Shown here: one piece after another, positions 5,445-28,054 of the stretch
How the letters are laid out: every line of letters starts with the position of its first letter
Position numbering within the stretch: the first letter of the stretch is position 1
Assembly: GCF_000378125.1 (NCBI RefSeq)
Contig: NZ_KB899242.1
Location: 496,001-560,000 of the forward strand
DNA length: 64,000 nt
Reading direction: 5' to 3'
From: Rudaea cellulosilytica DSM 22992
GTDB taxonomy: Bacteria; Pseudomonadota; Gammaproteobacteria; Xanthomonadales; Rhodanobacteraceae
The notes under the pieces: generated by a model
The model's database searches: none
Seen by the model: only the letters and a program-made list of their open reading frames with translations
What the model was told of the DNA's origin: nothing
Program-made: the position numbers and the translations under genes

Positions 5445-6821
<1,377 letters not shown>

Positions 6822-6969
6822 GGATGCCCCCTGTTGGCTGTGTGATATGCCGGCTTTCCCGGACCTGTTCGGCGCGCCCGCTTCGTGCGCAGAGGCGCGG
6901 CGACGCCTTATTGCACGTAAGCAAAGTTTGTCGAGCGGGAATGAAAGTTGCCGGCGGTTGGTTTCTACC

Positions 6970-7016
6970 CGGAGCGCCATAGACGCTCCGTGCGACGACG
7001 GCGCTTGTACGCCGTC
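6970..7016 (-). promoter_or_regulatory. Two tandem hairpins in the 5' leader of the collagen-like gene
   Basis: CGGAGCG (6970-6976) pairs with CGCTCCG (6984-6990), and GACGGCG (6997-7003) pairs with CGCCGTC (7010-7016). Both are 7-bp perfect stems with 6-7-nt loops, 6 bp apart. They fall within the roughly 280-nt leader predicted from the promoter at 7105-7133. Neither has a U-tract. They could modulate mRNA stability or translation; no known riboswitch was recognised. Nothing else distinct was seen in the 6822-7215 gap besides the promoter and CRP-type site. Confidence 0.4.
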
Positions 7017-7104
7017 ATTGCACTTCTTGCACATTGCAAGAGATGCGAACTACCGTTTCGAATTTTCCTTTCGCATCCGATGGATGCGCCCCTGTAGCTA
7101 GTCG

Positions 7105-7215: not shown

Positions 7216-8220
7216 TCATACCGAACAATTCAACGTTCGCCGCTCGCGCCAGGAAGAAGTCGCGAGTTCGGCCAATTGCAAGGCCTTGATTCCGTCAACA
7301 AGGCCCGGAACGGGCTGGGCATTGCCGGCCAGCACCTCGGCAAAATGTGCCATCTCGATCGCATAGGCGCGACGATAGCGCTCGAGAAAGAACGGCTCGG
7401 GCACGTCGCTGCTGACTGCGCTCGCGAGCGAGGCGACGACCTCGGTGGGCCGATGGTTACCTGCCTGCAGCATGCCGCCTGCGCCGAGCACTTCGATACG
7501 CTGGTCGTAACCGTAGGCCGCATGACGCGAAGTATTGATCGTGCATAGGCGCCCACTGCGCGAACGCAACGTCACCGCCGCCGTATCGAGATCGTTGGCC
7601 TGCCCCGCATTGGCGCTCAGGCAGGCACCGGTCGCATAGATTTCGACGATCTCGTCGGCGAGCAGCCAGCGGCAGACGTCGAAATCGTGAATCAACATGT
7701 CCTTGAACACGCCGCCGGATTGCTTGAGGTATTCCAGCGGCGGCGGTGCCGGATCGCGGCTGGTCAGCACGACGACTTCGGGCGCACCGATCTCGCCCGC
7801 GTCGAGGCGGCGCTTGAGCGCGGCGAAAGTGGGATCGAAACGGCGCTGGAAACCGATCATGCACGGCACGCCGGCTTCGGCCACCACCGCAGCGCATGCG
7901 CGCGCACCGTCGAGATCGGTCGCGACAGGCTTCTCGCAGAAGATAGCCTTGCCCGCGCGCGCTGCGCGCGCGATCAGTTCCGCGTGCATCGTGGTGCTCG
8001 CAGCGATGACGACGGCCGCGACGGTCGGATCCGCGAGAGCATGCTCTGCATCGACCACGGTTGCGCCGAACGTGGCGGCCAGTTTATCCGCCGCCTCCGC
8101 GTTCACGTCGACGACATAGCGCAGGCGCAAACCCGGTTGCGCGGCGATATTGCCCGCATGGATGCGGCCGATGCGCCCTGCGCCGAACAGCGCTATCGCG
8201 AACCTGCTCTCAGGCATCAT
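7216..8220 (-). CDS. iolG: myo-Inositol 2-dehydrogenase
   Basis: Oxidises myo-inositol to 2-keto-myo-inositol (scyllo-inosose) with NAD+, the first step of inositol catabolism, in the cytoplasm. 334 aa, Gfo/Idh/MocA family: Rossmann motif GAGRIG near residue 13, catalytic lysine in CEKPV, substrate-side residues in GFQRRFDPTF and GGVFKDMLIHDFDVCRWLL, which are typical of IolG rather than of general family members. The ATG at 8220 lies behind CCGGGGAC and overlaps the end of iolR by 11 bp, so the two are translated as a unit; a second ATG at 8217 is equally possible. It is under the iolR promoter and composite operator at 9122-9168. Confidence 0.9.
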   Translation of the reverse strand: MMPESRFAIALFGAGRIGRIHAGNIAAQPGLRLRYVVDVNAEAADKLAATFGATVVDAEHALADPTVAAVVIAASTTMHAELIARAARAGKAIFCEKPVATDLDGARACAAVVAEAGVPCMIGFQRRFDPTFAALKRRLDAGEIGAPEVVVLTSRDPAPPPLEYLKQSGGVFKDMLIHDFDVCRWLLADEIVEIYATGACLSANAGQANDLDTAAVTLRSRSGRLCTINTSRHAAYGYDQRIEVLGAGGMLQAGNHRPTEVVASLASAVSSDVPEPFFLERYRRAYAIEMAHFAEVLAGNAQPVPGLVDGIKALQLAELATSSWRERRTLNCSV

Positions 8221-9076
8221 AGTCCCCGGTGTGCGCACCTTCGTTCGGTTTCACTTCAAGCCGGTAGGCAAGTGCGACGAACAGCGCCTGGCACAGGCAG
8301 ATCGTGCTGGTCAACGCGCGGAACGCGAACGCGCTCGCCTCGTCGACCTTGAGCAGCACGTTCGCATGCGCGGCAAGCGGACCGAGGTCGGATTCGCTGA
8401 TCGCGATCACCTTGGCCTTGCGCTGGCGCGCAAGCCGCGTGCAGAACAGCGTCTCCTTGCCGTAAGGCGGAAAGCTGATCGCGATCAGGGCATCGCCCTT
8501 GCCGATGCTGTGGATCTGCTCGCGATGCATGCCGCCGAGGCCGTCGACCAGATGCACGCGCTTGGTCGTATGGCCGAGCGCGTAGGCGATGTAGCTCGCG
8601 ATCGCGAACGAACGCCGCACGGCGACGATGTAGATGTGCTCGGCCGGTTCGAGCAGATCTACCGCGGCGCGAAAACGCGCCGAGTCGAAACGTTCCACGA
8701 GCTCATCGAGCCCGACCCGGCAGGCATCGATGAAGCTGCGCGCGATCTGCGTCTCGTCGAGCTTTTCCGGACGCTCTGCGATGACGCGGCGAATGCGATG
8801 CTGGTAGCTGCCTGAAGGTTCGGCACGCTCGCGATAGGCGTCGCGGAACATGGCCTGCATCTCGCTGAACCCGGTATAGCCGAAGCGCTGCGCGAAGCGC
8901 ACGACGGCCGAGGGATGCACGTTCGATCCGCTCGCCACGTCGTTGACCTTCTGCAGCATGATGCTTGAGCGATGCTGCTCGAGATAGCGCGCGATGCCCT
9001 GGAGCTGGCGCGGCAACGACTCGAATTCGTCGGCGACGCGCTGCATGAGCTGGTCCACTGCATTGCTGACTGCCAA
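8210..9076 (-). CDS. iolR: RpiR-family transcriptional regulator of inositol catabolism
   Basis: 288 aa. The N-terminal RpiR helix-turn-helix domain (residues 1-80, with ASGSNVHPSAVVRFAQRFGYTGFSEMQ) is followed by a SIS sugar-phosphate-binding domain (about 120-260, with IYIVAVRRSFAIASYIAYAL and GDALIAISFPPYGKET). RpiR-type IolR of Sinorhizobium represses iol genes by binding GGAA-N6-TTCC and is relieved by a phosphorylated inositol intermediate. That exact motif lies in the iolR-iolC gap and at two other promoters here, so this is the probable regulator of the whole regulon and of itself. The start is a TTG at 9076 with AGGAG 9 nt upstream; no ATG gives the complete HTH domain. Confidence 0.85.
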   Translation of the reverse strand: MAVSNAVDQLMQRVADEFESLPRQLQGIARYLEQHRSSIMLQKVNDVASGSNVHPSAVVRFAQRFGYTGFSEMQAMFRDAYRERAEPSGSYQHRIRRVIAERPEKLDETQIARSFIDACRVGLDELVERFDSARFRAAVDLLEPAEHIYIVAVRRSFAIASYIAYALGHTTKRVHLVDGLGGMHREQIHSIGKGDALIAISFPPYGKETLFCTRLARQRKAKVIAISESDLGPLAAHANVLLKVDEASAFAFRALTSTICLCQALFVALAYRLEVKPNEGAHTGDYDA

Positions 9077-9121: not shown

Positions 9122-9168
9122 ATGGAATAAAAATTCCATATTTCCAATTGATGCAATGCGAATTGCAA
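9122..9168. promoter_or_regulatory. Composite IolR operator, iolR-iolC divergent promoter
   Basis: Two 18-bp palindromes of one type lie 29 bp apart centre to centre. ATGGAATAAAAATTCCAT (9122-9139) contains GGAA-N6-TTCC, and ATGCAATGCGAATTGCAA (9151-9168) has C/G in place of G/C at the fourth positions. The arrangement recurs at 20237-20283 and 22373-22419. It sits between iolR (minus) and iolC (plus), so it can control both. The second palindrome includes the -35 of iolC. Confidence 0.85.
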
Positions 9169-9191
9169 AGATTGAAGGCAGGTCCTATTCT
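9163..9191 (+). promoter_or_regulatory. iolCDB promoter
   Basis: -35 TTGCAA (9163-9168, the end of the second operator palindrome), a 17-bp spacer, and -10 TATTCT (9186-9191). The same TTGCAA-17-TAnnCT layout is found at the TonB receptor and sugar-binding-protein promoters. A repressor on the palindrome would block the -35. Confidence 0.65.
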
Positions 9192-9232
9192 CTCGCATAC
9201 GCCGCGCATTCTCGCAAGCCCACGCACCGCGC

Positions 9233-11221
9233 ATGACAGAACCTGTTCACCCCGCCACCGCGCGCCCGCTCGATGCCATCTTCCTCGGCCGCGTCGCCGT
9301 CGATCTCTACGCGCAGCAGATTGGCGCGCGCCTCGAAGACGCGACCAGCTTCGCCAAATACCTCGGCGGATCCTCCGGCAACGCAGCATTCGGCTGCGCG
9401 CGCCTCGGCCTCAAGTCGTCGATGCTCAGCCGCGTCGGCGACGACCAGATGGGTCGCTTCCTCAGCGAAACCCTCGCCCGCGAAGGCTGCGATGTCTCGC
9501 ACCTGCGCGTCGACCCGGATCGCCTGACCGCGTTCGTGCTGCTCGGCATCAAGGATCGCGACACCTTCCCGCTGTTGTTCCACCGTGAGAACTGCGCGGA
9601 CATGGCTATAGCTGCGGACGATATCGACGAGGCTTATGTCGCCTCGGCGCGTGCGCTCGCAATCACCGGCACGCACCTGTCCACCCCGGCCACGCTCGCT
9701 GCCTGCCATAAGGCACTCGATCTCGCGCGCAGGCACGGCCTGCGCCGCGTGCTCGACATCGATTACCGCCCGGTGCTCTGGGGCCTCGCGCCGCGCAGCG
9801 ACGGCGCCACGCGTTTCATCGCGAATGCGCAGGTGACCGCGCATCTGCGCGAAGTGTTGTCGTCATTCGATCTGATCGTCGGCACCGAGGAGGAATTTCG
9901 CGTCGCCGGCGGCGACGACGACTTGATCTCCGCATTACGCAATGTGCGTGCGGCGAGCCCGGCCCTGCTCGTGATCAAGCGCGGCGCGCTCGGCTGCAAC
10001 GTGATCGATGGCGACATTCCCGCGCGCATCGACGATGCGCCGCTGTACCGCGCGCCGCGCGTCGAGGTGCTCAACGTGCTCGGCGCCGGCGATGCATTCA
10101 TGGCCGGATTCCTTTCCGGCTGGCTGCGCGATGAAACTATCGAACGCTGCTGCGCCTCAGCGAACGCCTGCGGCGCGATCGTCGTGTCGCGCCACGGCTG
10201 CGCGCCGGCGATGCCGAGCCGCGCCGAGCTCGACCATTTCTTGGCCCAAGTCGATCGCGATCCGGCACGCGCGCAGCGCCCCGACCTCGACGCCGATCTG
10301 GCCCACCTGCATCGCGTCAGCGTAGCGCGGCCGCACTGGGATGACCTGCACGTATTCGCCTTCGACCATCGCAGCGCACTCGAGGAATTAGCCCGCCACC
10401 ACGGCGCGAGTGCAGCGGCGCGTCTTTCGCTGTTCAAGAGCCTGCTGTTGCGCGCGACCGACCAGACCGAACGGGCATCCGCTCTGTCCGACCGCATCGG
10501 CGTGCTCATCGATGACCGCTACGGCCAGGATGCACTCAACGCCGCGAGCGGGCGCGGCTGGTGGATCGGCCGTCCGGTCGAACTCCCCGACACGACGCCG
10601 CTCGCGTTCGAACACGGCCGCTCGATCGGCACGCATCTGGCCACCTGGCCCCACGAACACACGATCAAATGCCTCGTCGTCTTCGACCCCGACGACGCCA
10701 TACAGCGCGCCGAACAGGGGCGGCAGTTGCGCACGCTATACGACGCCGCCTGCGCGAGCGGCCACGAATTGCTGATCGAGGTCATCGCGCCGCCGCGCGC
10801 GGCACCGACGCAGCGCGGAGATCTCGTGCGCCGCGCGATCGAGCGCATCTATGCCTACGGCATCAGACCAGAGTGGTGGAAGCTCGCGCCGCTGGATGCG
10901 GCCGACTGGCCTGCCCTCGATGCGCTGATCATGCGCAACGATCCCTGGTGCCGCGGAGTGCTCCTACTCGGCGCCGACGCACCCTTTGCCGATCTCGCCG
11001 CCGGTTTTGCCGCCGCCGCGGCCAGCGCGACCTGCCGCGGCTTCGCCGTCGGCCGCAGCGTATTCGCCGAACCGGCGCGCGCCTGGTTCACCGGCGAGAT
11101 CGACGATGATGCGCTGGTCGCACGCGTGCATGCCAACCAGCGCGAACTCGCTGCACTCTGGCGCGCGGCGCGCGACAATATCGCCCAAGACGATACGAAA
11201 AGACTTTCCGCAAACGCATGA
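9233..11221 (+). CDS. iolC: 5-Dehydro-2-deoxygluconokinase fused to DUF2090 aldolase domain
   Basis: 662 aa, two domains. Residues 1-335 are a PfkB/ribokinase-type kinase that phosphorylates 5-dehydro-2-deoxygluconate: GGSSGNAAFGCARLG near the start and the C-terminal signature VLNVLGAGDAFMAGFLSGWL, with the catalytic Asp in GAGDA. Residues about 350-650 are DUF2090 (DDLHVFAFDHRSALEELARHHG...), annotated in fused IolC proteins as the aldolase that splits the phosphorylated product into dihydroxyacetone phosphate and malonate semialdehyde. This would replace a separate iolJ, and none is seen nearby. The ATG at 9233 follows the promoter at 9163-9191. The gene overlaps iolD by 4 bp (ATGA), so they are translationally coupled. 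Confidence 0.93.
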   Translation: MTEPVHPATARPLDAIFLGRVAVDLYAQQIGARLEDATSFAKYLGGSSGNAAFGCARLGLKSSMLSRVGDDQMGRFLSETLAREGCDVSHLRVDPDRLTAFVLLGIKDRDTFPLLFHRENCADMAIAADDIDEAYVASARALAITGTHLSTPATLAACHKALDLARRHGLRRVLDIDYRPVLWGLAPRSDGATRFIANAQVTAHLREVLSSFDLIVGTEEEFRVAGGDDDLISALRNVRAASPALLVIKRGALGCNVIDGDIPARIDDAPLYRAPRVEVLNVLGAGDAFMAGFLSGWLRDETIERCCASANACGAIVVSRHGCAPAMPSRAELDHFLAQVDRDPARAQRPDLDADLAHLHRVSVARPHWDDLHVFAFDHRSALEELARHHGASAAARLSLFKSLLLRATDQTERASALSDRIGVLIDDRYGQDALNAASGRGWWIGRPVELPDTTPLAFEHGRSIGTHLATWPHEHTIKCLVVFDPDDAIQRAEQGRQLRTLYDAACASGHELLIEVIAPPRAAPTQRGDLVRRAIERIYAYGIRPEWWKLAPLDAADWPALDALIMRNDPWCRGVLLLGADAPFADLAAGFAAAAASATCRGFAVGRSVFAEPARAWFTGEIDDDALVARVHANQRELAALWRAARDNIAQDDTKRLSANA

Positions 11222-13095
11222 GCAACCCGACCGTACGACTCACGATGGCGCAGGCACTGGTGCGCTATCTGGCGGCACAACAGGTGCGCATCGACGGTGA
11301 AACCGTGCCGCTGTTCGCCGGCATGTTCGCGATCTTCGGTCACGGCAACGTCGCCGCACTGGGTGAAGCGCTGTACGAACACCGCGACGCCCTGCCGACC
11401 TGGCGCGCACACAACGAACAAGCGATGGCACATACCGCGATCGCCTACGCCAAGGCGCAGGCGCGCCGGCGCATGATGGCCGTGACCACGTCGATCGGCC
11501 CCGGCGCAACCAACCTCGTCACCGCCGCCGCACTCGCCCACGTCAACCGCCTGCCCGTGCTGCTGCTGCCCGGCGACGTCTTCGTCTCGCGTGCGCCCGA
11601 CCCGGTATTGCAACAGATGGAGGATTTCGCCGACGGCACGGTCAGCGTCAACGACTGCTTCAAGCCGGTCTCGCGCTACTTCGACCGCATCGTCGCGCCG
11701 TCGCAATTGCTGAGCGCGCTGCCGCGCGCGATTCGCGTGCTGACCGATCCGGCGTTGTGCGGCCCAGTCACGCTGGCGCTGCCGCAGGACGTGCAGGCGC
11801 AGGCCTTCGACTATCCCGCCGCGTTCTTCGAACCGCGCATCGTGTCCGCGCCCGCAACGATACCGTCCCCCGTACAAATCGCCGCCGCCGCCGCCACGCT
11901 GCGCGCCGCGCGGCGCCCGGTCATCATTGCCGGCGGCGGCGTGCTCTACGGCGACGCCACGAAAACGCTGCGCGCCTTCGCCGAGCGCCACGCGATTCCG
12001 GTCGCCGAGACGCAGGCCGGCAAGGGCAGCCTGCCCTGGGACCATCCGTTACAACTCGGCCCGGTCGGCGTCTGCGGCAGCAGCGCCGCGAATGCAGTCG
12101 CTGCGCAAGCCGACCTTGTCCTCGCGGTCGGCACGCGTCTCGCCGACTTCACCACGGGCTCGAATGCGTTGTATCCCAAAGCTCGGCTTGTGACGCTCAA
12201 CGTCAATGCCTATGACGCAGAAAAGAATTCGGCGCTCGCCATCGCTGCGGATGCGAACGAAAGCCTCGATGCGCTCACTCAGACGTTGCTCGACTGGTGC
12301 GCGCCGAGGGAATGGCGAGATCGCGCCGAACAGCTTGGAAATGAGTGGCGCGCCGTTGTCGAGCGCCTCACCGCAACACGCAATTTTCGTGCGGGCGAGC
12401 TGCCCTACGAAGCCGACGTGATCGGCGCCGTGCAGCGCTCGGCTGTCGATTCGGCCGACAACGACATCGTCGTCTGCGCCGCCGGCGGCCTGCCGGGCGA
12501 GCTGATCAAGCTGTGGCGCACGCGCATGCCGGGCGGATACCACGTCGAATACGGTTACTCGTGCATGGGCTACGAGATCGCCGGCGGCCTGGGCGTGAAA
12601 ATGGCCAAACCAGAGCGCGAAGTGATCGTCATGGTCGGCGACGGCAGCTACCTCATGCTCAATTCCGAAATCGCCACTTCGGTGATGCTCGGCCACAAGC
12701 TTATCGTCGTCGTGCTCGACAACCGCGGCTTCGGCTGCATCGGCCGCCTGCAGCGCGCCTGCGGTGACGCGCCTTTCAACAACCTGCTCGATGAGGACTG
12801 CGCGACCGCTACCGGCGCACCCGCGGTCGACTTCGCCGCGCACGCGCGCGCGCTCGGCGCGGCTGCCGAACATGTCGACAGCATCGGCGAGCTGGAACAA
12901 GCGATGAAACGCGCACGCGCCGCAAAGAGCAGCTACGTCATTTCGATCCGCACCGACCCGCATCGCTGCACGCGCGAAGGCGGCAGCTGGTGGGAGGTGG
13001 CCGTGCCCGCGGTCTCCACGCGCGAATCCGTGCGCGAGGCGCGTACGGACTACGAAGCGGCGCTGCGCAAACGCGACCAAGAATCCGGAGCATGA
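11218..13095 (+). CDS. iolD: 3D-(3,5/4)-trihydroxycyclohexane-1,2-dione hydrolase
   Basis: Opens the ring of the diketone made by IolE, giving 5-deoxyglucuronate; thiamine-diphosphate dependent. 625 aa with the three TPP-enzyme domains: N-terminal PYR domain with the activating glutamate in RAHNEQAMAHTAIAYAKA, a central domain (residues about 215-350), and the C-terminal PP domain with the cofactor motif GDGSYLMLNSE ... VLDN near residues 478-500. The segment LFAGMFAIFGHGNVAALGEAL near residue 30 is IolD-specific among acetolactate-synthase relatives. It is coupled by ATGA overlaps to iolC before it and iolB after it. Confidence 0.96.
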   Translation: MSNPTVRLTMAQALVRYLAAQQVRIDGETVPLFAGMFAIFGHGNVAALGEALYEHRDALPTWRAHNEQAMAHTAIAYAKAQARRRMMAVTTSIGPGATNLVTAAALAHVNRLPVLLLPGDVFVSRAPDPVLQQMEDFADGTVSVNDCFKPVSRYFDRIVAPSQLLSALPRAIRVLTDPALCGPVTLALPQDVQAQAFDYPAAFFEPRIVSAPATIPSPVQIAAAAATLRAARRPVIIAGGGVLYGDATKTLRAFAERHAIPVAETQAGKGSLPWDHPLQLGPVGVCGSSAANAVAAQADLVLAVGTRLADFTTGSNALYPKARLVTLNVNAYDAEKNSALAIAADANESLDALTQTLLDWCAPREWRDRAEQLGNEWRAVVERLTATRNFRAGELPYEADVIGAVQRSAVDSADNDIVVCAAGGLPGELIKLWRTRMPGGYHVEYGYSCMGYEIAGGLGVKMAKPEREVIVMVGDGSYLMLNSEIATSVMLGHKLIVVVLDNRGFGCIGRLQRACGDAPFNNLLDEDCATATGAPAVDFAAHARALGAAAEHVDSIGELEQAMKRARAAKSSYVISIRTDPHRCTREGGSWWEVAVPAVSTRESVREARTDYEAALRKRDQESGA

Positions 13096-13892
13096 GCATG
13101 AGCCTGCTCGTCAAGGCGCGCCGCGACGCGCAGCATATGATCCGCATCACGCCGGAATCTGCCGGTTGGCGCCATGTCGGCTTCGACGCCTGGCGCCTCG
13201 ACGCAGGCGACGAGCTGCGCATCGACATTCCCGACGATCGCGAAGCCTGCCTGGTCGTGCTGCGCGGATCCATCGATTTCGAAGCCGGCCCATTGCACCG
13301 GGAAAACTTCGGCGGACGCGACAGCGTGTTCACCGCGCAACCGCCGCACGCCTTGTATGCGCCCCCGCGGACAAGCGTGCGTGTACGCGCGTGCGACAGC
13401 GTCGAACTCGCTCTCGCCAGTGCGCCGGCAACGGGTCGCTATCCGGCGCGCGTGATCGAACCCGCGTCGATGCAGCAGTCGACGCGCGGCACCGGCACGA
13501 ACGAACGCTATATCTGCGACGTGCTGCCGCAGACCGAGGCCGCCGAATCGCTGCTCGTCGTCGAGGTGCGTACCCCCGCCGCGCATTCGTCGAGCTATCC
13601 GCCACACAAGCACGACGTCGACGATCCGCCGCACGAAACCCAGCTCGAAGAGGTTTACTATCACCGCATCGACCCATCGCAAGGCTTCGCCCTGCAGCGC
13701 GTCTATACCGACGCACGCGACCTCGACGAAACGATGGCGGCGCACGACCACGACGTCGTCCTCGTCCCGCGCGGCTACCACCCCGTGGTGATGCCGCACG
13801 GCTACAACGGCTACTACCTCAACGTCATGGCCGGCCCACGCCGCGAGTGGCGCATGCGCAACGATCCGACGCACGAGTGGATGTTGAAGTAG
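13092..13892 (+). CDS. iolB: 5-Deoxy-glucuronate isomerase
   Basis: Converts 5-deoxyglucuronate to 5-dehydro-2-deoxygluconate, the substrate of IolC. 266 aa, two cupin folds; the metal site is visible in SYPPHKHDVDDPPHETQLEEVYYHRI (His, His, Glu), and the C-terminal PRGYHPVVMPHGYNGYYLNVMAGP is a strong IolB signature. The start ATG at 13092 overlaps the iolD stop by 4 bp; a longer in-frame reading is out of register with the family N-terminus. It is the last gene of iolCDB and converges on the minus operon, with only 15 bp between stop codons and no obvious terminator there. Confidence 0.95.
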   Translation: MSMSLLVKARRDAQHMIRITPESAGWRHVGFDAWRLDAGDELRIDIPDDREACLVVLRGSIDFEAGPLHRENFGGRDSVFTAQPPHALYAPPRTSVRVRACDSVELALASAPATGRYPARVIEPASMQQSTRGTGTNERYICDVLPQTEAAESLLVVEVRTPAAHSSSYPPHKHDVDDPPHETQLEEVYYHRIDPSQGFALQRVYTDARDLDETMAAHDHDVVLVPRGYHPVVMPHGYNGYYLNVMAGPRREWRMRNDPTHEWMLK

Positions 13893-13907
13893 GCGTCCAA
13901 CCGCACG

Positions 13908-14984
13908 CTAGCGAGAGCGTGCTTCGTCGGCGAACAATCTGCCGATCTGCGCGAACAGCTTGAGGTCATCGAGCGAGTCCTCGAGTGTGGTCTTGACTGG
14001 AGCGCCGTTGACCACGGCCTCGTAGAAAGCATCGAGCTCGCCACGGAACGGGTCCTCGTGGAACGGTCCGACAATCTCGGTCACCGTTTCGCGCTCGCTC
14101 GAGCGCGTGATCTCCAATCGTGTCGGCAGATGGCGGACATACGGCGTATCGTAGTTGATGCGGAACATCGCGCGATCGCAGAGCACGTCGATGCCGGAAT
14201 CGAAGCGCGCAATGTTATTGGTCACCGCCTCATACACCGCGGTGAAATGGCCGTAGTCGAACAGCACGGCGATCGCCTCGCCGCCGTTGCACTGGCGCGC
14301 GGCGAAGATCTTGGGCGTACCGAGCAGCTCGCGCATCGCCGAGAAGCTGTGCGAGGATAGGCCGGTCAGCACCTGGTAGCCGCGCACGACCGCGGCCGGT
14401 GCATCGGCACCGACTACGGCGCGCAGCATCGCCTGCGTGCGCGCCCTGCCCTCGTCGATCACGGCCGGCGGCACGTCGGTCGGTTTGAATACGGGCCGCG
14501 TCTGCGCAACGAAGAACGGCGCCTCGCAGATCAGATCGCGCACGCGCACGTGCTGTACTTCGCTCAGCGCCGGCAGGCGCTTCTTCAGTTCTAGGAACGG
14601 CCGCGCGAAGCGGCGCATATAACCGACGAAGATCGTCTTCGCGTAGCCGCGCCCACGCTCGATCAGCGGCAGCAACTGCTCGACGTTGAGGCAGACTGGC
14701 TTCTCGATGAAGACGTGCTTGCCTGCATCCATGGCGCGCGCTAGCAGATCGGCGTGCAAATGATCGGGCGTGAGGATGAACACCGCGTCGACGTTTTTGT
14801 CGTCGATCAGCGTTTCGGCATTGGCATGCGTGCGTGCGCCGTAACGCTGCGCGATATGCGCGGTCAGACTGGGCGATACGTCGCTGACTGCGGCGATCTT
14901 ATAGCGCGCGTCGTCCGCGAGTAGCGGTAGGTGCATGAGCTGGGCAACTTCTCCCAAGCCGATCAGTCCAACGCGGATCGTCAT
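13908..14984 (-). CDS. Gfo/Idh/MocA-family oxidoreductase, probable scyllo-inositol dehydrogenase
   Basis: 358 aa. Rossmann motif GLIGLGEVAQLMH at the N-terminus, catalytic lysine in FIEKPVCLNVEQ, and a C-terminal alpha/beta domain. It differs clearly from the IolG at 7216-8220. It is the last gene of the six-gene minus operon with inositol uptake genes and iolE, overlapping iolE by 4 bp (ATGA). In other inositol loci such extra members (IolX, IolW, IolU types) oxidise scyllo-inositol or other isomers or inosose derivatives; that role is inferred from position. It could equally act on a sugar released from a glycosyl-inositol. The ATG at 14984 matches the family N-terminus. Confidence 0.8.
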   Translation of the reverse strand: MTIRVGLIGLGEVAQLMHLPLLADDARYKIAAVSDVSPSLTAHIAQRYGARTHANAETLIDDKNVDAVFILTPDHLHADLLARAMDAGKHVFIEKPVCLNVEQLLPLIERGRGYAKTIFVGYMRRFARPFLELKKRLPALSEVQHVRVRDLICEAPFFVAQTRPVFKPTDVPPAVIDEGRARTQAMLRAVVGADAPAAVVRGYQVLTGLSSHSFSAMRELLGTPKIFAARQCNGGEAIAVLFDYGHFTAVYEAVTNNIARFDSGIDVLCDRAMFRINYDTPYVRHLPTRLEITRSSERETVTEIVGPFHEDPFRGELDAFYEAVVNGAPVKTTLEDSLDDLKLFAQIGRLFADEARSR

Positions 14985-15847
14985 TGCACGCTCCCGCTCA
15001 GCGACTGGAGGAACTGCAGGTTCTTGCGCGCGAGAAAAACCGGCTCCTCGATCTGCGTCGAGCTCCAGTCCTGCTCGATGATGCACGGTCCTGCGTAGTT
15101 CTTTTCGGCCAGCAACTTCATCACCGCGCGAACATCCACTGCACCGTCCGTGAGCGGCGCGAAGATGCCTGCTTCGGACGCCTGCGCCGTGTCGATCTCG
15201 CCGCGCACGAGGCGCTCGCGCACGTTCGCATCGACGCTCTTGAAATGTACATAGCCGATGCGCGACCAGACCTTGCGCATGTACGCCGCCGGGTCTTGTC
15301 CCCAGGCCGCATGGTGACCGGTGTCGAAGCAGAGATTGACCTCGGTATCCTGCAGCAGACGATCGATCTGCGCCTCACGCTCGACGCAGGTGCCGAGGTG
15401 CGGATGGAATGTCATGGCAATACCGTAGTCCTCAGCCAGACGTTGCTGCGCGTCGCGCACCATGCCGACCACGGTCTTCCAACCGGCCTCATCGACGACG
15501 CCGCGCCTGCCCGGCGGATACCAGTTGCCCTCGTCCATGATGACGACATGCTTCGAGCCCGCATCGCTGACGAGCTTGCCGAGCTGGTCGATCGTCGCAA
15601 GCAGCGCATCGCGCGTCGACGGATCGGCGAGTGTGTGCACGTGCGTCGCCCCCGTGAGCTGGAGCCCGCGCGAGTCCAACGCATGCTTGAGCTGCGCGGC
15701 GTCGGTCGGCAGAAAGCCGAGCGGACCGAGCTCGGTTGTCGCATAGCCTGCTTCGCGCACCTGGTCGAGATATTGGTCGGGCGTGTAGCGGTTGTCTTTC
15801 GGATAGTAGATGCCCCAGGAACAAGGGGCGTTGCCGATCGATAGCAT
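14981..15847 (-). CDS. iolE: Inosose dehydratase
   Basis: Removes water from 2-keto-myo-inositol to give the trihydroxycyclohexane-dione used by IolD. 288 aa, one TIM-barrel of the xylose isomerase/AP endonuclease type. It starts MLSIGNAPCSWGIYYP, a strong IolE-family opening, with metal-binding residues in HVVIMDEGNWY, MTFHPHLGT, NLCFDTGHHAAWG and the terminal IIEQDWS. It lies 30 bp after the ABC ATPase and overlaps the next oxidoreductase by 4 bp, so inositol uptake and the second catabolic step share a transcript from the promoter near 20214-20242. Confidence 0.9.
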   Translation of the reverse strand: MLSIGNAPCSWGIYYPKDNRYTPDQYLDQVREAGYATTELGPLGFLPTDAAQLKHALDSRGLQLTGATHVHTLADPSTRDALLATIDQLGKLVSDAGSKHVVIMDEGNWYPPGRRGVVDEAGWKTVVGMVRDAQQRLAEDYGIAMTFHPHLGTCVEREAQIDRLLQDTEVNLCFDTGHHAAWGQDPAAYMRKVWSRIGYVHFKSVDANVRERLVRGEIDTAQASEAGIFAPLTDGAVDVRAVMKLLAEKNYAGPCIIEQDWSSTQIEEPVFLARKNLQFLQSLSGSVQ

Positions 15848-15877
15848 GGTCGTACCTCTGCTGATGAAAATGAGGTT

Positions 15878-16996
15878 CTAGTTCGACGGGTCTTCCGCAG
15901 CACCCGGGATGCGTACGCCTTGTGCGTCGAATAACGTGAACCGGTCTGCATCGAACGCGAACGCGGCATCACTCTCGATGCGCAACGAGGCATCGCCGAA
16001 TATGCGCGCGGTGACACGAACGCCGCCGTCGAGATCGAGCGTGACGAGACTTTCCGGCCCCATCGCTTCGTTGGCGAACAGCTTGCCATGCAGGCGGTTC
16101 GTGGCGACATCGCCTGCGGTGATGCGCAGGTGCTCGGGACGTACGCCGACGGTGACGCGATCGCTGCGTTCGAGTGCTAGGTCGAGTGCCGGCCAACTCA
16201 CGATCGGCGCCATTTGCAGTCCTGCACCGCGCAGCGCGACATCATGTCCGTTGCGCGTCGCCTGCGCCGCCACCAGGTTCATCGGCGGATCGCCGACGAA
16301 ACCGGCAACGAACGTCGTCGCCGGCCGCCGGTAGATTTCGAGCGGCGGCGCGTACTGCACGATGTCACCCGCGCACATCACTGCGATGCGCGTCGACAGC
16401 GCCATGGCCTCGGCCTGGTCATGAGTCACGTAGACCGCGGTCATGCCGCGGCTGCGTTGCAGGTGATGCAGGAACGCCCTCGCCTCCACGCGCATGCGCG
16501 CGTCGAGATTCGACAGTGGCTCGTCGAACAGGAACGCGGCGGCCGGATGCACGAGAGCGCGCGCGAGCGACGTGCGCTGCTGCTGGCCACCCGAGATTTG
16601 TGCGGGCAGACGGTCGAGCAGTTGGCCGATATGCAACACTTCGGCGATCTCGCGCGCCTTCTCGTGTCGCGTCGCCTCGGCGACACCGCGCACCTTGAGC
16701 GGATAGGCGATGTTGTCGGCGATCGTCATGTGCGGGTAGAGCGCGTAGTCCTGGAACACCATGCCGATGTTGCGGTCTTTCGGCTGCGCACAAGTGACAT
16801 CGCGGCCACCGATGCGAATGCTGCCGCGGCTCGGCTGCTCGAGGCCGGCGATCATGCGCAGCGTCGTCGTCTTGCCACAGCCGGAAGGCCCGAGCAGGCA
16901 GACGAATTCGCCGTCGTCGATCGCGAGGTCGATCTCGCGGATCGTGTCGACCGCGCCGAAGCTCTTGCCGATCTTGTCGAGTTGGATCGATGCCAT
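15878..16996 (-). CDS. ABC transporter ATP-binding protein (MalK/UgpC type)
   Basis: 372 aa. Energises sugar or polyol import at the inner membrane. Walker A is GPSGCGKTT (residues 36-44), the signature is ISGGQQQR, Walker B is AAFLFDEPLSNLD and the H-loop is VYVTHDQAEAM. A C-terminal TOBE/OB region (about 240-365) is typical of the MalK subgroup, which may carry regulatory contacts. It follows the second permease by 8 bp and precedes iolE by 30 bp. Substrate assignment to inositol or an inositol glycoside rests on the operon and its shared operator, not on the protein itself. Confidence 0.92.
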   Translation of the reverse strand: MASIQLDKIGKSFGAVDTIREIDLAIDDGEFVCLLGPSGCGKTTTLRMIAGLEQPSRGSIRIGGRDVTCAQPKDRNIGMVFQDYALYPHMTIADNIAYPLKVRGVAEATRHEKAREIAEVLHIGQLLDRLPAQISGGQQQRTSLARALVHPAAAFLFDEPLSNLDARMRVEARAFLHHLQRSRGMTAVYVTHDQAEAMALSTRIAVMCAGDIVQYAPPLEIYRRPATTFVAGFVGDPPMNLVAAQATRNGHDVALRGAGLQMAPIVSWPALDLALERSDRVTVGVRPEHLRITAGDVATNRLHGKLFANEAMGPESLVTLDLDGGVRVTARIFGDASLRIESDAAFAFDADRFTLFDAQGVRIPGAAEDPSN

Positions 16997-17004
16997 GAAA
17001 AGCC

Positions 17005-17829
17005 TCAGGATTTGATTCCGCCGAAGAAGCGGAACCCGTATTTGCGGTTGACGTACCAGTACAGCGCGATCACCGGCAGCGAGTACAGCACCGAGTACGC
17101 GGCGAGCAGCGGCACGATCGGCGTACCGGCCTGCGAATAGAACGAATAGATCTCGACCGACGCGGGCATGCGCTGCTCACTGCGCAGGAGCACGAACGGA
17201 ATCAGAAACCCGCCCCAGACCTGAACGAAAGCCCAGACTGCGGCGATCGTCACGCCGGGCCGCAACACGGGCACGACGACGTCGACGAACGCACGCCATT
17301 GCGAAGCACCGGCGACGAGCGCCGACTCCTCGTAGCCGCGTGGAATGCTCGCGATGAAGTCGCGCAGGATAAACATGGCCGTGGGCAACAAGCCGCCGGC
17401 GAAGACGAGGATCACAGCGAGCTGGGTATCGATCAGGCCGAGCGCGTTGACGATCAGGAAGATCGGCACCATCGCCGCCGAACCCGACACGACCGAGGAG
17501 AACAACAGCAATACATATTCGATGACGCGCTTGCCGCGCAGCGTCGTGCGCGCGAGCGCATAAGCGGCCAGCGTCGCGGTCGTCGCCACGAGCAACACCG
17601 TGCCGAAGGCCTGCAGCAGCGAGTTGAGCAACGCACCGACAGCAGCGCCATTGGCGAATACGCGTGCGAAGTTCGCCAGGGTCGGCGGCTTCGGCAAGGC
17701 CAGATCGAGATCGGCCTGCGCATTGAACGGCGCGAACACGAACCAGATCAGCGGCAGCGCGAAGGCAACACCGAGCAGCGCCGCGCAGACGCTGAAGACG
17801 ATGCGCGAAACCAACTTACGACGGTTCAT
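17005..17829 (-). CDS. ABC sugar transporter permease (MalG/UgpE type)
   Basis: 274 aa inner-membrane protein with about six hydrophobic helices. The first spans roughly residues 9-30 (IVFSVCAALLGVAFALPLIW). The EAA loop that docks on the ATPase reads GYEESALVAGASQWRAFVDVVVPVLRPG. The C-terminus NRKYGFRFFGGIKS is usual for this subfamily. The ATG at 17829 overlaps the end of the partner permease by 4 bp; longer readings upstream are not membrane-like. It forms a CUT1-type importer with the neighbouring permease, ATPase and binding protein. Confidence 0.92.
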   Translation of the reverse strand: MNRRKLVSRIVFSVCAALLGVAFALPLIWFVFAPFNAQADLDLALPKPPTLANFARVFANGAAVGALLNSLLQAFGTVLLVATTATLAAYALARTTLRGKRVIEYVLLLFSSVVSGSAAMVPIFLIVNALGLIDTQLAVILVFAGGLLPTAMFILRDFIASIPRGYEESALVAGASQWRAFVDVVVPVLRPGVTIAAVWAFVQVWGGFLIPFVLLRSEQRMPASVEIYSFYSQAGTPIVPLLAAYSVLYSLPVIALYWYVNRKYGFRFFGGIKS

Positions 17830-18746
17830 GCGGCCTTCCCCTTCTTGCGCAGGCCGCGTTGCGCCAGGCGCAGATACGCAAGCGAAAACGCCAGGTTGAT
17901 CAGCATCACGATCACACCGATCGCCGCGCCCTTGCCGAACTCGAAGCTCTTGAACGCGATGCGGTAGGTGTAGATCGGCAGGATATCGCTCTCGAACGAT
18001 GGCCCACCCGCGGTCAGGAGGAACGGCGTGAACACGTTGAACGTCCACATCGTGATCAGGATCAGGTCAGTGACGATGTGCCCGCGGATCAACGGCAGAA
18101 CGATGTCGCGCAGCTTCTGCCAGCTCGAGGCACCGACCACATCGGCAGTTTCAAGATAGCTCGGCGGAATCGACTGCAGCGCCGCGTCGAACAGCATCAT
18201 CGAGAACGCCGCGCCGCGCCAGGCGTTGAACATGCAGATGGTCAGGAACGGATGTTCGATCAGGAAATCGGCTGCAGGAAAGTTCAATCCGCGCAGCAGC
18301 TGGTTGAGCGTGCCCGCGTCGCGATCGAGATAAGCGAACCAGGCGAAGCCGACGACGACATCCGGCAGGATCCAGGCGAGCATGACGATGCCATGCAGCA
18401 GCGACTTGGCGCGCGGCGACAGCTCGCGCGAGATCCAGGCGAGCACGAGTCCGAGCAGGACCTGCCCGCATAGAGCTGAAAACACGACGAACTGGATCGT
18501 CAGCCATAGCGACGGGCCGAAACCGCCTTGGCCCCAGAAAGTGGCCGGATCGAACAGATCGAGATAGTTTTTCAGGCCGACGAACTGCGGATGCAGCGCG
18601 TTCGCACCGAGCAGGCTGCGGTTGCTGAAGCTGACCGCGATGATCCAAAAGAACGGAAACACGACGAACAGACCGATCAGCAGTGCGGCGGGCGTCATGA
18701 ACGCCACGCCGGTGCGTGAAGACACCTTGGCGCCGCGCGAACTCAC
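17826..18746 (-). CDS. ABC sugar transporter permease (MalF/UgpA type)
   Basis: 306 aa with six predicted membrane helices, the first at VAFMTPAALLIGLFVVFPFFWIIAVSF split over residues about 14-40. The EAA loop reads YLETADVVGASSWQKLRDIVLPLIRG. It overlaps the binding-protein gene by 4 bp at its start and the second permease by 4 bp at its end. It is part of the inositol-regulon importer; the exact cargo is unproven. Confidence 0.92.
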   Translation of the reverse strand: MSSRGAKVSSRTGVAFMTPAALLIGLFVVFPFFWIIAVSFSNRSLLGANALHPQFVGLKNYLDLFDPATFWGQGGFGPSLWLTIQFVVFSALCGQVLLGLVLAWISRELSPRAKSLLHGIVMLAWILPDVVVGFAWFAYLDRDAGTLNQLLRGLNFPAADFLIEHPFLTICMFNAWRGAAFSMMLFDAALQSIPPSYLETADVVGASSWQKLRDIVLPLIRGHIVTDLILITMWTFNVFTPFLLTAGGPSFESDILPIYTYRIAFKSFEFGKGAAIGVIVMLINLAFSLAYLRLAQRGLRKKGKAA

Positions 18747-20170
18747 GAGCCGCTCCCCTGTGGCAGATCGAGCGCGACGACGCGGTCCGCGCCGACGATC
18801 TGCTTCATCGCGGCCGCATATTCGGCCATCGCCGCGCGCGGCGAGAGCTTTCCGGCGATGACGCTCTCGGTCATGCGCTGAATCTCGGCCGAGACTTTCT
18901 CGTAGTCGGCGTCGATCGGCCGGATCGTCGTCAGCGGCAAAAGCTCGCGCCCGCTCTCGCGCAGGAACTGCGAATGCGGCGGCAGCACGTCGTCGCGCAC
19001 GCAGAGATGTTCATTGAACTCCTGATAGCGACGCAGCGTCGGCGCCGAATTCATGAACGCGAGCAGCGACCAGGCCTCGCGCGGCTGCCTTGAATGCGGG
19101 TTGAGCACAAAGCTGTTGCCACCCGAGACGCTGACGAAATCCTGCCCGCGCACCGCGCTGCCCGGCGTGCGCGCCGGCATCTTCGTCCAACCGACGAGCG
19201 CGTCGCGATCGGCGATCGGGAAATCGCCCTGCGGATCGATCGCGGCGTAGTAGAACCAGTTGCTCTCGACCAGGATCGCACTTTTGCCGTGCTGGAAATC
19301 GGTGAAACTGCGGTTGCGCCCGCTGACCAGGCGTTGCGTGCGCGCCTCGCCGAGCTTCTCACCGATGTACACGACCTTGTAGAAATCGAGCGCGGCGAGC
19401 ATGCCCGGACTCTGCACGATCCAGCGGCCCTGCGCATCGCGCAGTTCCTCGCCGGTACCGGCGAGCAGCATCAGCCAGCCCTGCATCGTCGTCGCCTCGC
19501 CCATCGCGACGCCGGCATTGATCTGCAACGGAAAACTTGCCGGTTCTTTCTGCTTCAGCTTGCGCGCAGCTTCCAGGATGTCGTTCCACGAACGCGGCCG
19601 CCACTGATCCGCATCGAGTCCTGCGGCGCGAAACAAATCGCGACGATAGAAAATCATGCGTACATCGGTCTGCTCTGGCACGCCGTAACGCTTGTCGCGA
19701 AAACGCACGAGCGCCTGCGCGCTGTCGGGGATATGCGTCCAGCCATCCCATGCATCCGCCTCGGGACCGGCGACTTCGTCTAGAGGCTTGAGCAGGCCCG
19801 CGTCGACGAACCCGGGAATCTGGAATCCGTCGAACTCGGCGAGATCGGCGCCTTGGCCAGTAGCGAAGTCCAGCGCGAGCTGCTGCGACATCTGCTCGGC
19901 GCTGCCGGCGAATTCGCGCAACTTGACCGCCACATCGCGACCCTGTGCCTTCGCCACGGCGACATAGCCGGGGATCACGACCTGCTTGAGCCAGCGCGCC
20001 TCGGATCCGTTCACGCCGCCCTCGACGCAGCGACAGGCGATAGACACTTCTGTCGGCGCCGCCCGCACCATCGCCCACGCGGCCACGCCAAACAGCAACG
20101 CCATGGCACGCGCGCAACCACGCACGAACGAGGCGCGACGCGTCAAGCGGATGTGCAGCATCGCCGGCAT
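18743..20170 (-). CDS. ABC transporter extracellular solute-binding protein (sugar/polyol)
   Basis: 475 aa periplasmic binding protein of the sugar (family 1) type that delivers substrate to the two permeases. The N-terminus is basic then hydrophobic (RARAMALLFGVAAWAMVRA-like), a Sec signal ending near residue 37. SBP landmarks are DLAEFDGFQIPGFVDAGLLKPLDE, RYGVPEQTDVRMIFYRRDLF, SWNDILEAARKLK, and GGNSFVLNPHSRQPREAWSLLAFM. A frame open to 20224 exists, but that ATG would lie upstream of the predicted -10 (20214-20219); the ATG at 20170, with AGGAG upstream, or 20161, is therefore preferred. It is first in the six-gene minus operon. Confidence 0.88.
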   Translation of the reverse strand: MPAMLHIRLTRRASFVRGCARAMALLFGVAAWAMVRAAPTEVSIACRCVEGGVNGSEARWLKQVVIPGYVAVAKAQGRDVAVKLREFAGSAEQMSQQLALDFATGQGADLAEFDGFQIPGFVDAGLLKPLDEVAGPEADAWDGWTHIPDSAQALVRFRDKRYGVPEQTDVRMIFYRRDLFRAAGLDADQWRPRSWNDILEAARKLKQKEPASFPLQINAGVAMGEATTMQGWLMLLAGTGEELRDAQGRWIVQSPGMLAALDFYKVVYIGEKLGEARTQRLVSGRNRSFTDFQHGKSAILVESNWFYYAAIDPQGDFPIADRDALVGWTKMPARTPGSAVRGQDFVSVSGGNSFVLNPHSRQPREAWSLLAFMNSAPTLRRYQEFNEHLCVRDDVLPPHSQFLRESGRELLPLTTIRPIDADYEKVSAEIQRMTESVIAGKLSPRAAMAEYAAAMKQIVGADRVVALDLPQGSGS

Positions 20171-20213
20171 TGCTATTCTGTACTCCTGCGCAAGGCAGAA
20201 TTCAGGGACGTCG

Positions 20214-20242
20214 AGCTTAAGCATGCCGCAACGCTATTGCAA
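20214..20242 (-). promoter_or_regulatory. Promoter of the inositol ABC-iolE operon
   Basis: Reading on the minus strand: -35 TTGCAA (plus 20237-20242), 17-bp spacer, -10 TAAGCT (plus 20214-20219). Predicted start near 20207, giving a leader of about 37 nt to the ATG at 20170. Same geometry as the iolC and TonB promoters. Confidence 0.6.
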
Positions 20243-20283
20243 TTTGCATTGCAAAATTTAAATATTTGGAATGCAAATTCCAA
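20237..20283. promoter_or_regulatory. Composite IolR operator, ABC operon / glycosidase divergent promoter
   Basis: TTGCAATTTGCATTGCAA (20237-20254) and TTGGAATGCAAATTCCAA (20266-20283) are 29 bp apart centre to centre, the same pair as at 9122-9168 and 22373-22419 but in reverse order. The second includes GGAA-N6-TTCC. It lies between the minus-strand importer and the plus-strand glycosidase. A plus promoter can be read as TTGCAA (20237-20242) with TAAATA (20259-20264), overlapping the operator. Confidence 0.85.
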
Positions 20284-20296
20284 ATATTGGACTGCC

Positions 20297-22246
20297 ATGA
20301 CTGCGTCGACCATCCACCTCGTTTTCAAGACGCACCTCGATATCGGCTTTACCCAGCTCGCGGAGCGTGTGCGCCGGCAATACCACGACGTCTTCATTCC
20401 CGGCGCGATAGACACCGGCGAGCACTTCCTGCGCGAAGACCCGAACCAGCGCCTGTTCGTCTGGACCACCGGCGCCTGGCTGATCTGGGATCATCTGGAA
20501 ACGCAGCCGCCCGAACGCGTGCGCCGGCTCGAACGTGCGATCGACCACGGTCTGATCCGCTGGCATGCGCTGCCGTTCACCACGCACACCGAACTGATGT
20601 CACCAGCACTGTTTCGCGCGGGATTGACGTATGCGCAGGAGCTCGACCGCCGCTTCGGCGTGAAGACGATCGCGGCGAAGATGACCGACGTGCCGGGCCA
20701 CACGCTCGGCATCGTGCCGCTGCTCGCGCGCGCAGGGGTGAAATTCCTGCATATCGGCGTGAACACCGCATCGACCCCACCCGACGTGCCCGACCTGTTC
20801 CGCTGGCGCGCGCCCGGCGGAGAGGAAATCCTCGTCGCCTACCAGAAGAGCTACGGCTCGACCCATTTCGTCGATGGCACCGATCTCGCCCTGAGTTTTG
20901 CGCATACCAACGACAACATCGGCCCGCAAAGCGTCGGCCAGGCGGTGGACTGCCACCGCGACCTGCACGACGAATATCCCGACGCCGAGATCCGCGCCTC
21001 GACGCTTGATGCCTTTGCCGAGGCTATCTGGCCGCTGCGCGAACGCTTCCCGTTGATCGACCGCGAGATCGGCGATTCCTGGATCCACGGCATCGGCACC
21101 GACCCGGTGAAAGTCTCGCGCTTCCTCGACCTGCAGCGGCTCTATGACCGCTTCGATGAAGAAGGTCTCACACCGCAACGCGCCGCATTCGGTCGCCGCC
21201 TCTGCCTCGTGCCGGAACATACCTGGGGCGTCGACATCAAGACCTATCTGCGCGACGAGACCCATTGGGATCGCGACGACTTCGAGCGTGCGCGCCGCGA
21301 CGATCCACGCTTCGCGTTCTGCGAATCGTCGTGGGACGAACAGCGCGCGTATCTCGACACGGCTGTCGACGCGCTCGACGACGAGGATCGCGCGCTGGCG
21401 AATGTCGTCACCGACGCAACCAGTCCGACCATCGGTGCAGCGGTTGCCGGCGGGTCTGCGACAACGGTGTCTGAGATCGATATCGGCGGCTGGGGCCTCG
21501 TCATCGACCCAATCTCGGGCGCGTTGCAGAGTCTGTCGTCACCGGGCGGCGCAAGCATGGCGGGCGACAACCTGATCGCCTACGTCTACGAAAGCTACGA
21601 CGCCAACGATGTCGCCACGCATATGCGCACCTATCTGACCGATCGCGTGCGCTGGGCGCTGCTCGACCATGGCAAGCCCGGGCTCGAGCAGGCACGCACG
21701 GCACGGTCGGCGCGCTACACCACCGAGTTGGCCGGCGTCGAACGCGGGCCCGATCGCGTCGTGCTGCATTGGCGCACATCCGCTATCGCGCATGAGCTAC
21801 TCGGCGCGCCCGAGCAGCTGTCGCTCGACATCCGGCCGCTGAGCGCGACGCAGCTCCGGCTTGAACTCGTGATGCGCGACAAGCCGGCAAACCGCATGCC
21901 GGAGGCGAGTTTTCTCGCATTCGCGCCAGCCAGTGCGCAAGAATGGCAACTGCACAAGCTCGGCATCTGGCTGCCGGCCGCCGAAGTCGTGCGCAACGGC
22001 GGCGGTGCGCTGCAGGCCGTGTCCGCACTGCGGGCGAAACTGTCTTCCGGCGCGACGCTGCAGATCACGCCGTTCGATTCGCCGCTGATCGCTCCCCTCG
22101 ATGCTCCATTCATGGCGTTCACGAGCGCGCCGCCGGATTTCTCCGCGGGCGTCCGTTTCAACCTGCACAACAACAAGTGGGGCACGAACTTTCCGATGTG
22201 GTGCGCGGGCACGCTGCGCTTCCGTTTCGATCTGGAAATCTCGTAG
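20297..22246 (+). CDS. GH38-type glycosidase, DUF5054 family
   Basis: 649 aa, no signal peptide, so cytoplasmic. The start IHLVFKTHLDIGFT is the DUF5054 opening; His13 and Asp15 match the HxD zinc site of GH38 alpha-mannosidases, and KMTDVPGHTLGIVPLLARAG (Asp131, His135) matches the GH38 nucleophile segment normally written DPFGHS. The C-terminal half is a beta-sandwich as in GH38. It is divergent from the inositol importer and shares its composite operator, so I infer that it cleaves an imported inositol glycoside, possibly alpha-mannosyl-inositol. The ATG is only 13 bp from the operator edge and has a weak ribosome-binding site. Family assignment is good; substrate is unknown. Confidence 0.82.
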   Translation: MTASTIHLVFKTHLDIGFTQLAERVRRQYHDVFIPGAIDTGEHFLREDPNQRLFVWTTGAWLIWDHLETQPPERVRRLERAIDHGLIRWHALPFTTHTELMSPALFRAGLTYAQELDRRFGVKTIAAKMTDVPGHTLGIVPLLARAGVKFLHIGVNTASTPPDVPDLFRWRAPGGEEILVAYQKSYGSTHFVDGTDLALSFAHTNDNIGPQSVGQAVDCHRDLHDEYPDAEIRASTLDAFAEAIWPLRERFPLIDREIGDSWIHGIGTDPVKVSRFLDLQRLYDRFDEEGLTPQRAAFGRRLCLVPEHTWGVDIKTYLRDETHWDRDDFERARRDDPRFAFCESSWDEQRAYLDTAVDALDDEDRALANVVTDATSPTIGAAVAGGSATTVSEIDIGGWGLVIDPISGALQSLSSPGGASMAGDNLIAYVYESYDANDVATHMRTYLTDRVRWALLDHGKPGLEQARTARSARYTTELAGVERGPDRVVLHWRTSAIAHELLGAPEQLSLDIRPLSATQLRLELVMRDKPANRMPEASFLAFAPASAQEWQLHKLGIWLPAAEVVRNGGGALQAVSALRAKLSSGATLQITPFDSPLIAPLDAPFMAFTSAPPDFSAGVRFNLHNNKWGTNFPMWCAGTLRFRFDLEIS

Positions 22247-22372
22247 CCGAGCGACTCGAGGACGCCGCGCGCGAGTTGCCGCGCTGACATCTTGGCAACA
22301 TAAAACATCGCTAGATTCGTATCTCGTCTGCGCCTGCCGAAACGCTCCACCAAGGCAGACGCTTGTACGTAA

Positions 22373-22419
22373 ATAGAATTTTTTTTCCAACTGACACAAT
22401 GTTGCAATGCAAATTGCAA
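22373..22419. promoter_or_regulatory. Composite IolR operator before the TonB receptor-lipase operon
   Basis: A degenerate first palindrome at 22373-22390 (AGAA-N6-TTCC at 22375-22388) and a perfect second one, TTGCAATGCAAATTGCAA (22402-22419), with centres 29 bp apart, as at the two other iol promoters. It places the receptor, PI-PLC and PHP genes in the inositol regulon. Confidence 0.8.
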
Positions 22420-22442
22420 TAGAGTTTGCCGGTACCTATGCT
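22414..22442 (+). promoter_or_regulatory. Promoter of the TonB receptor-PI-PLC-PHP operon
   Basis: -35 TTGCAA (22414-22419, end of the operator), 17-bp spacer, -10 TATGCT (22437-22442). Predicted start near 22449, about 71 nt before the chosen ATG. The rest of the 22247-22519 gap shows no terminator for the glycosidase gene. Confidence 0.65.
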
Positions 22443-22519
22443 CGCTCGGCCTGACCGGCGCGCACCACACGCTGTCTCCCTCCCCGTTGCCAATGTCTTT
22501 CACTCCGGAGATTCCGTTC

Positions 22520-25186: not shown

Positions 25187-25202
25187 TCGCACCCTGCGGT
25201 GA

Positions 25203-26486: not shown

Positions 26487-26490
26487 TTCT

Positions 26491-28005: not shown

Positions 28006-28054
28006 TGGCGCAGCGCGTCGCGACTTGCCTCGAGCGAGCCGCTACCATCGCGCG

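Follow-up and report, generated by a model that had tools for sequence, protein, structure and literature searches.

Two related palindromes recur at one and the same distance in front of inositol genes of Rudaea cellulosilytica, which raises the question of which protein would read them and why the distance is kept. Within the window, i.e., the whole 64,000-nucleotide stretch of DNA analysed here, the obvious candidate is iolR (8210–9076, minus strand), which has a TTG start codon with AGGAG 7 bp upstream and encodes an RpiR-type regulator with HTH_6 and SIS domains. Its product scored 35.6 bits against PF01418 (cut-off 28.3) and 71.8 bits against PF01380 (cut-off 25) and thus belongs to the RpiR family; it is 93–94% identical in Rudaea sp. 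3F27F6 and two MAGs, and RpiR proteins with 33–37% identity to it occur at alphaproteobacterial iolR-iolC loci. Four iol genes adjoin iolR, all above the NCBIfam cut-offs: iolG for inositol 2-dehydrogenase (7216–8238, minus strand; TIGR04380) lies downstream of it, while the plus strand carries a gene for an iolC-type kinase/aldolase fusion (9233–11221; NF047869), iolD (11218–13095; TIGR04377) and iolB (12990–13892; TIGR04378), the ORF start of the latter being probably placed too early. A collagen-like repeat protein of the SclA/SclB kind (5445–7034, minus strand; PF01391) is encoded next to iolG.

In the following, the GGAA-type palindrome is termed O1 and the GCAA-type palindrome O2, both being 18 bp long. 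Read directly from the sequence, O1 is TGGAAT-N4-ATTCCA and O2 is TTGCAATGCAAATTGCAA, i.e., TGCAAT-N4-ATTGCA, so that the half-sites TTGGAAT and TTGCAAT are a single base apart. The first pair fronts iolR-iolG on one side and iolCDB on the other, with O1 (ATGGAATAAAAATTCCAT) at 9122–9139 and O2 (ATGCAATGCGAATTGCAA, plus strand) at 9151–9168. The second lies between an ABC transporter-led operon (13908–20161, minus strand), comprising genes for a solute-binding protein, two permeases, an ATPase, an IolE-like protein and a Gfo/Idh dehydrogenase, and a gene for a glycoside hydrolase-like protein (20297–22246, plus strand; DUF5054 above cut-off, GH38N below cut-off). Here, O1 (TTGGAATGCAAATTCCAA) occupies 20266–20283 and ends 13 bp upstream of the ATG at 20297, and O2 is found at 20237–20254 on the minus strand (TTGCAATTTGCATTGCAA in forward reading, TTGCAATGCAAATTGCAA on the minus strand). 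The third pair, consisting of O1 at 22373–22390 (ATAGAATTTTTTTTCCAA, an AGAA variant) and O2 at 22402–22419 (TTGCAATGCAAATTGCAA, plus strand), fronts genes that profile searches assigned to a TonB-dependent receptor (22487–25186, plus strand) and a Ca2+-dependent phosphoinositide phospholipase C (PI-PLC-C1; 25203–26486, plus strand).

A first-pass annotation of this DNA had described two related palindromes with an identical centre spacing of 29 bp at three promoters, one pair being in reverse order, and on re-reading all three pairs this description was borne out: the spacing is 29 bp in each, and the second pair is the inverted one. Its assignment of the published GGAA-N6-TTCC motif to one member of each pair, with AGAA in the third, was likewise correct (exact at 9124–9137 and 20268–20281, AGAA variant at 22375–22388), but the pairs front five transcription units and not four, namely iolR-iolG, iolCDB, the ABC transporter operon, the DUF5054/GH38N-like gene and the TonB receptor/PI-PLC operon. 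Read from O1 towards O2, the second palindrome has the form TTGCAAT-GCAA-ATTGCAA, and this asymmetric conserved core gives the composite a direction, which at the second site is towards the ABC transporter operon on the minus strand. The four-base core GCAA, read away from O1, is kept in most Rhodanobacteraceae; the cores of palindromes are usually free to vary.

Specificity for these promoters appears to reside in the pair. When the paired core GSAAT-N4-ATTSC-N15-GSAAT-N4-ATTSC was searched in the whole 4.34-Mb genome with up to three mismatches, only the three operators and one further 3-mismatch site, which is a chance match, were returned, and the reversed pattern used as control gave none. 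The genome-wide scan, which the first-pass annotation had suggested as a check, thus yielded no set of pairs before unrelated genes apart from this stray match. Genome-wide, the 18-mer type TTGSAATNNNNATTSCAA has exact matches at three places, all within the three operators; likewise, TTGCAATGCAAATTGCAA at up to three mismatches has a single 3-mismatch site outside them in the whole genome, and at up to two mismatches no O2 was found in the genome beyond the three operators. Single O1-like sites with two mismatches are scattered over the genome, and some also appear in the control, which is why we ascribe the specificity to the combination.

The arrangement is kept far beyond this genome. When the gap between O1 and O2 was allowed to vary from 1 to 31, a scan of 198 family genomes recovered nine exact pairs in five genomes, every one at 29 bp (control: 0), and all five genomes carry an IolR orthologue. 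Among the 30 family genomes with a close IolR orthologue (E below 1e-100), each contains the pair, at 29 bp in 29 of them and at 30 bp in one (L039/G134). It is located upstream of iolR in 28 (27 at 29 bp, one at 30 bp) and about 22 kb from iolR, at 29 bp, in the remaining two. Where iolR is not beside the target, the pair is found at the target promoter, e.g., of a sugar-binding transporter gene (L070) or a GH92 gene (L097), so that it cannot be a mere feature of the promoter of iolR itself. Twenty family genomes devoid of the orthologue gave two chance-like matches with two mismatches each; the pair hence tracks IolR, with 30/30 orthologue genomes against no clear case in the 20 others. Named relatives sharing it include Luteibacter, Dyella, Rhodanobacter, Lysobacter and Burkholderiaceae, and in most Burkholderiaceae (Burkholderiales) O1 is unchanged and the 29 bp are kept, with O2 altered to approximately ATGAAATTTTCATTGCAA.

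A test free of any assumed spacing, in which a frame of 18 bp was moved along the sequence around O1 and complementary pairs were counted, gave dyad peaks at +29 in gamma- (z 5.6) and betaproteobacteria (z 4.3) and at +30 in alphaproteobacteria (z 4.1), the z-scores being descriptive only since related sequences share ancestry. In the phylum-wide search (399 genomes, gap 1–31), all nine matches were at 29 or 30 bp: two at 29 bp from this genome, six at 30 bp from a single alphaproteobacterial genus, all in iolR-iolC regions, and one more at 30 bp (G574, L223), which has no iol gene nearby and was set aside as likely chance. The alphaproteobacterial (Rhizobiales-like) pair before iolC consists of two GGAA-type palindromes 30 bp apart, e.g., GGAATGCTCATTCC and GGAATTATTATTTC. 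In Pseudomonas-like and enteric promoters the case is not convincing: several show half-sites at a distance of 29 bp, but the partner palindrome is only half conserved and the dyad profile has no peak at 29. A second palindrome at a fixed distance of 29–30 bp occurs above chance, and accidental pairing of O1 and O2 is ruled out by the genome, family and phylum searches. With 29 or 30 bp recurring before inositol genes of other Proteobacteria, the distance is not peculiar to this organism and appears to be a conserved feature of the mode of action of the repressor. In a more distant gammaproteobacterium, three IolR-like palindromes stand in a row with a pitch of 30 and 29 bp (L210:4012–4090 and L177:2512–2590).

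Does one regulator occupy both palindromes? The first-pass annotation had named the RpiR gene at 8210–9076 as the single regulator, and the evidence sides with it. No HTH_6/RpiR protein other than the product of this gene was found in the genome, which rules out a second RpiR paralogue for O2, and the genome search revealed no O2 sites of their own and hence no independent O2 regulon. Moreover, the composite follows IolR from genome to genome, an ordinary IolR motif takes the partner position in alphaproteobacteria, and the recognition helix VHPSAVVRFAQRFG is identical in gamma- and betaproteobacteria despite their differing O2. Taken together, these observations favour binding of IolR at both sites. 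The same observations weigh against an AND-type control in which IolR would bind O1 and another repressor or an activator O2, as does the identity of six of seven bases between the O2 and O1 half-sites. Such a second regulator could explain why both arms of O2 consistently show the same one-base deviation from O1 in Rhodanobacteraceae and why the asymmetric GCAA core of O2 is kept across this family, and a gene for an AraC-type regulator (28025–29146) is indeed situated near the third operon; on balance, however, we consider this alternative unlikely.

The deviating base of O2 may find a different explanation on the promoter side. At the first site, O2 ends in the hexamer TTGCAA (9163–9168, plus strand), a candidate −35 box of iolC, which is followed after 17 bp by the candidate −10 box of iolCDB, TATTCT (9186–9191, plus strand), the position of which is conserved in relatives. 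The third site likewise combines a candidate −35 box within O2 (22414–22419, plus strand) with TATGCT as candidate −10 box of the TonB receptor/PI-PLC operon (22437–22442, plus strand), again 17 bp from TTGCAA. For the ABC transporter operon, the candidate −35 box within O2 (20237–20242, minus strand) is 17 bp from TAAGCT (20214–20219, minus strand), the weakest of the three candidate −10 boxes; the gene of the solute-binding protein extends from 18743 to an ATG at 20161 (minus strand), and a longer ORF reaching to 20224 would overlap this hexamer. TTGCAA itself is a fair −35 box with a 4/6 match.

In relatives, −10-like hexamers were scored 16–18 bp past O2 by their mismatches compared with shuffled sequences. 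This resulted in 2.56 vs. 4.17 ± 0.16 for gammaproteobacteria, where TTGCAA ending O2 is followed after 17–18 bp by, e.g., TATGCT, TATTCT or CATGCT, and in 3.00 vs. 3.91 ± 0.12 for betaproteobacteria, where TACTCT often stands 17 bp past O2. No −10 signal was obtained for alphaproteobacteria, whose second site has no TTG (4.67 vs. 4.06 ± 0.30). In gamma- and betaproteobacteria, the promoter-side half of O2 thus looks like a −35 box. A change of ATTCCAA to ATTGCAA in this half creates the TTG of such a box and would explain the occurrence of the latter, and a matching change in the distal half is found mainly in Rhodanobacteraceae, so that the palindrome is retained. On the simplest account, O2 would be an IolR site that has been adapted for use as −35 box.

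Taken to its extreme, the same evidence could mean that O2 is no operator at all but only a promoter element of the −35 region, with back-to-back −35 boxes of divergent genes mimicking a palindrome at the first site, which is in fact divergent; the distance of 17–18 bp between the promoter-side half and the −10-like hexamer in gammaproteobacteria would fit as well. We regard this as highly improbable, because at the third site the two 7-bp arms of O2 form a perfect palindrome although the upstream gene is encoded on the same strand (ending at 22246) and a divergent gene is not evident, and because neither the 29-bp distance to O1 nor the GGAA-type partners at 30 bp without −10 signal in alphaproteobacteria would be accounted for.

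We therefore return to IolR at both palindromes and propose, with a probability of roughly 0.8, that the pair represents a composite, directional IolR operator read by two dimers or one tetramer, in which O2 would double as −35 box. One IolR dimer would sit on the canonical palindrome O1; O2, 29 bp away, would be taken by another dimer or by the remaining half of an IolR tetramer, and its promoter-side half, changed from ATTCCAA to ATTGCAA, may serve as −35 box of the target operon (TTGCAA, 17 bp, TANNCT). When inducer is lacking, O1 would anchor IolR and help to load the weaker O2, thereby covering the −35 box. Binding of an inducer in the SIS domain, most likely the IolC product 2-deoxy-5-keto-gluconate-6-phosphate (DKGP), would then free O2 and allow transcription. 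A point against this model is that 29 bp correspond to 2.76 helical turns, which would not place two dimers exactly on one face of the DNA. More tentatively, and at slightly less than even odds, proteobacterial IolR could in general use a fixed 29–30 bp two-dimer ruler (perhaps with three sites in some lineages) read by a tetramer, with the promoter-side half-site serving as −35 box in gamma- and betaproteobacteria and the Rudaea unit having been copied to further promoters to recruit genes for phosphoinositide degradation.

Elements of this model have counterparts in known systems. MurR of E. coli is a tetrameric RpiR repressor of two adjacent inverted repeats in a divergent promoter region. 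As for the family in general, 18-bp near-palindromes are bound by RpiR dimers; tetramers form through the SIS domains, with phosphorylated sugars located at their interface (PMC12713135). The NanR protein of Streptococcus pneumoniae resembles the model for Rudaea IolR in that a dimer binds an 18-bp near-palindrome; it is in dimer-tetramer equilibrium, and another, degenerate half-site at a distance of 23 bp near the promoter was proposed as tetramer contact. However, NanR is an activator with a half-site as partner (PMC12713135), whereas Rudaea has a full palindrome in this place and IolR is expected to act as a repressor. Similarly, RccR of Pseudomonas is one RpiR protein with two related operator types and a phosphorylated sugar acid as effector, and its two sites before aceE, which showed apparent cooperativity, are 68 bp apart; in contrast to Rudaea, what distinguishes its operator types is the length of the linker inside a single palindrome (15 or 28 bp), and for the most part the two types are found at different promoters (PMC5489143).

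Closest is IolR of alphaproteobacteria. The Caulobacter protein, like that of Rudaea an HTH_6 and SIS repressor of iol genes, represses through GGAA-N6-TTCC, the motif carried by O1, and its iolC promoter also contains two motifs (Boutte 2008, PMC2597717). These are, however, of one type and 59 bp apart, unlike the fixed 29-bp pair of Rudaea with its GCAA-type partner on a candidate −35 box. Mutating the nearer motif was without effect in complex medium (PMC2597717), indicating that a second site may be dispensable in some cases. DKGP is given as inducer of Sinorhizobium IolR (PMC8877191, citing Kohler 2011), and no mention of a fixed pitch between IolR motifs was found in either paper (PMC2597717, PMC8877191). 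The GGAA-N6-TTCC motif, the IolR regulator and the presence of several copies per promoter are hence already known. A fixed pitch of 29–30 bp and a variant embedding the −35 box were not found described in the open-access papers covered by the search. For RpiR repressors, such an arrangement provides an architecture open to experimental test; structures have shown tetramers of this family, but how they use two operators is poorly understood. From the conserved spacing, contacts between dimers on DNA can be predicted, and O2 is a natural case where the same bases may belong to both an operator half-site and a −35 box.

Three composites are present in all four IolR-bearing genomes of the genus, and most relatives have one clear copy, which suggests that copies of the unit arose within the genus. 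The three composites likely define the inositol regulon of Rudaea as predicted from sequence, reaching as far as the TonB receptor and PI-PLC. The succession of these two genes (22487–26486) under the same composite suggests that phosphatidylinositol could be scavenged as a source of inositol. The third gene following PI-PLC (26490–28005) encodes a stretch, GDLHMHGAHSDG, which by eye resembles PHP-type phosphoesterases; a Pfam search of this long ORF gave no match. In a Rhodanobacter MAG, the composite stands before the gene of a GH92 glycoside hydrolase (L097:5090–5132), another lineage-specific recruit.
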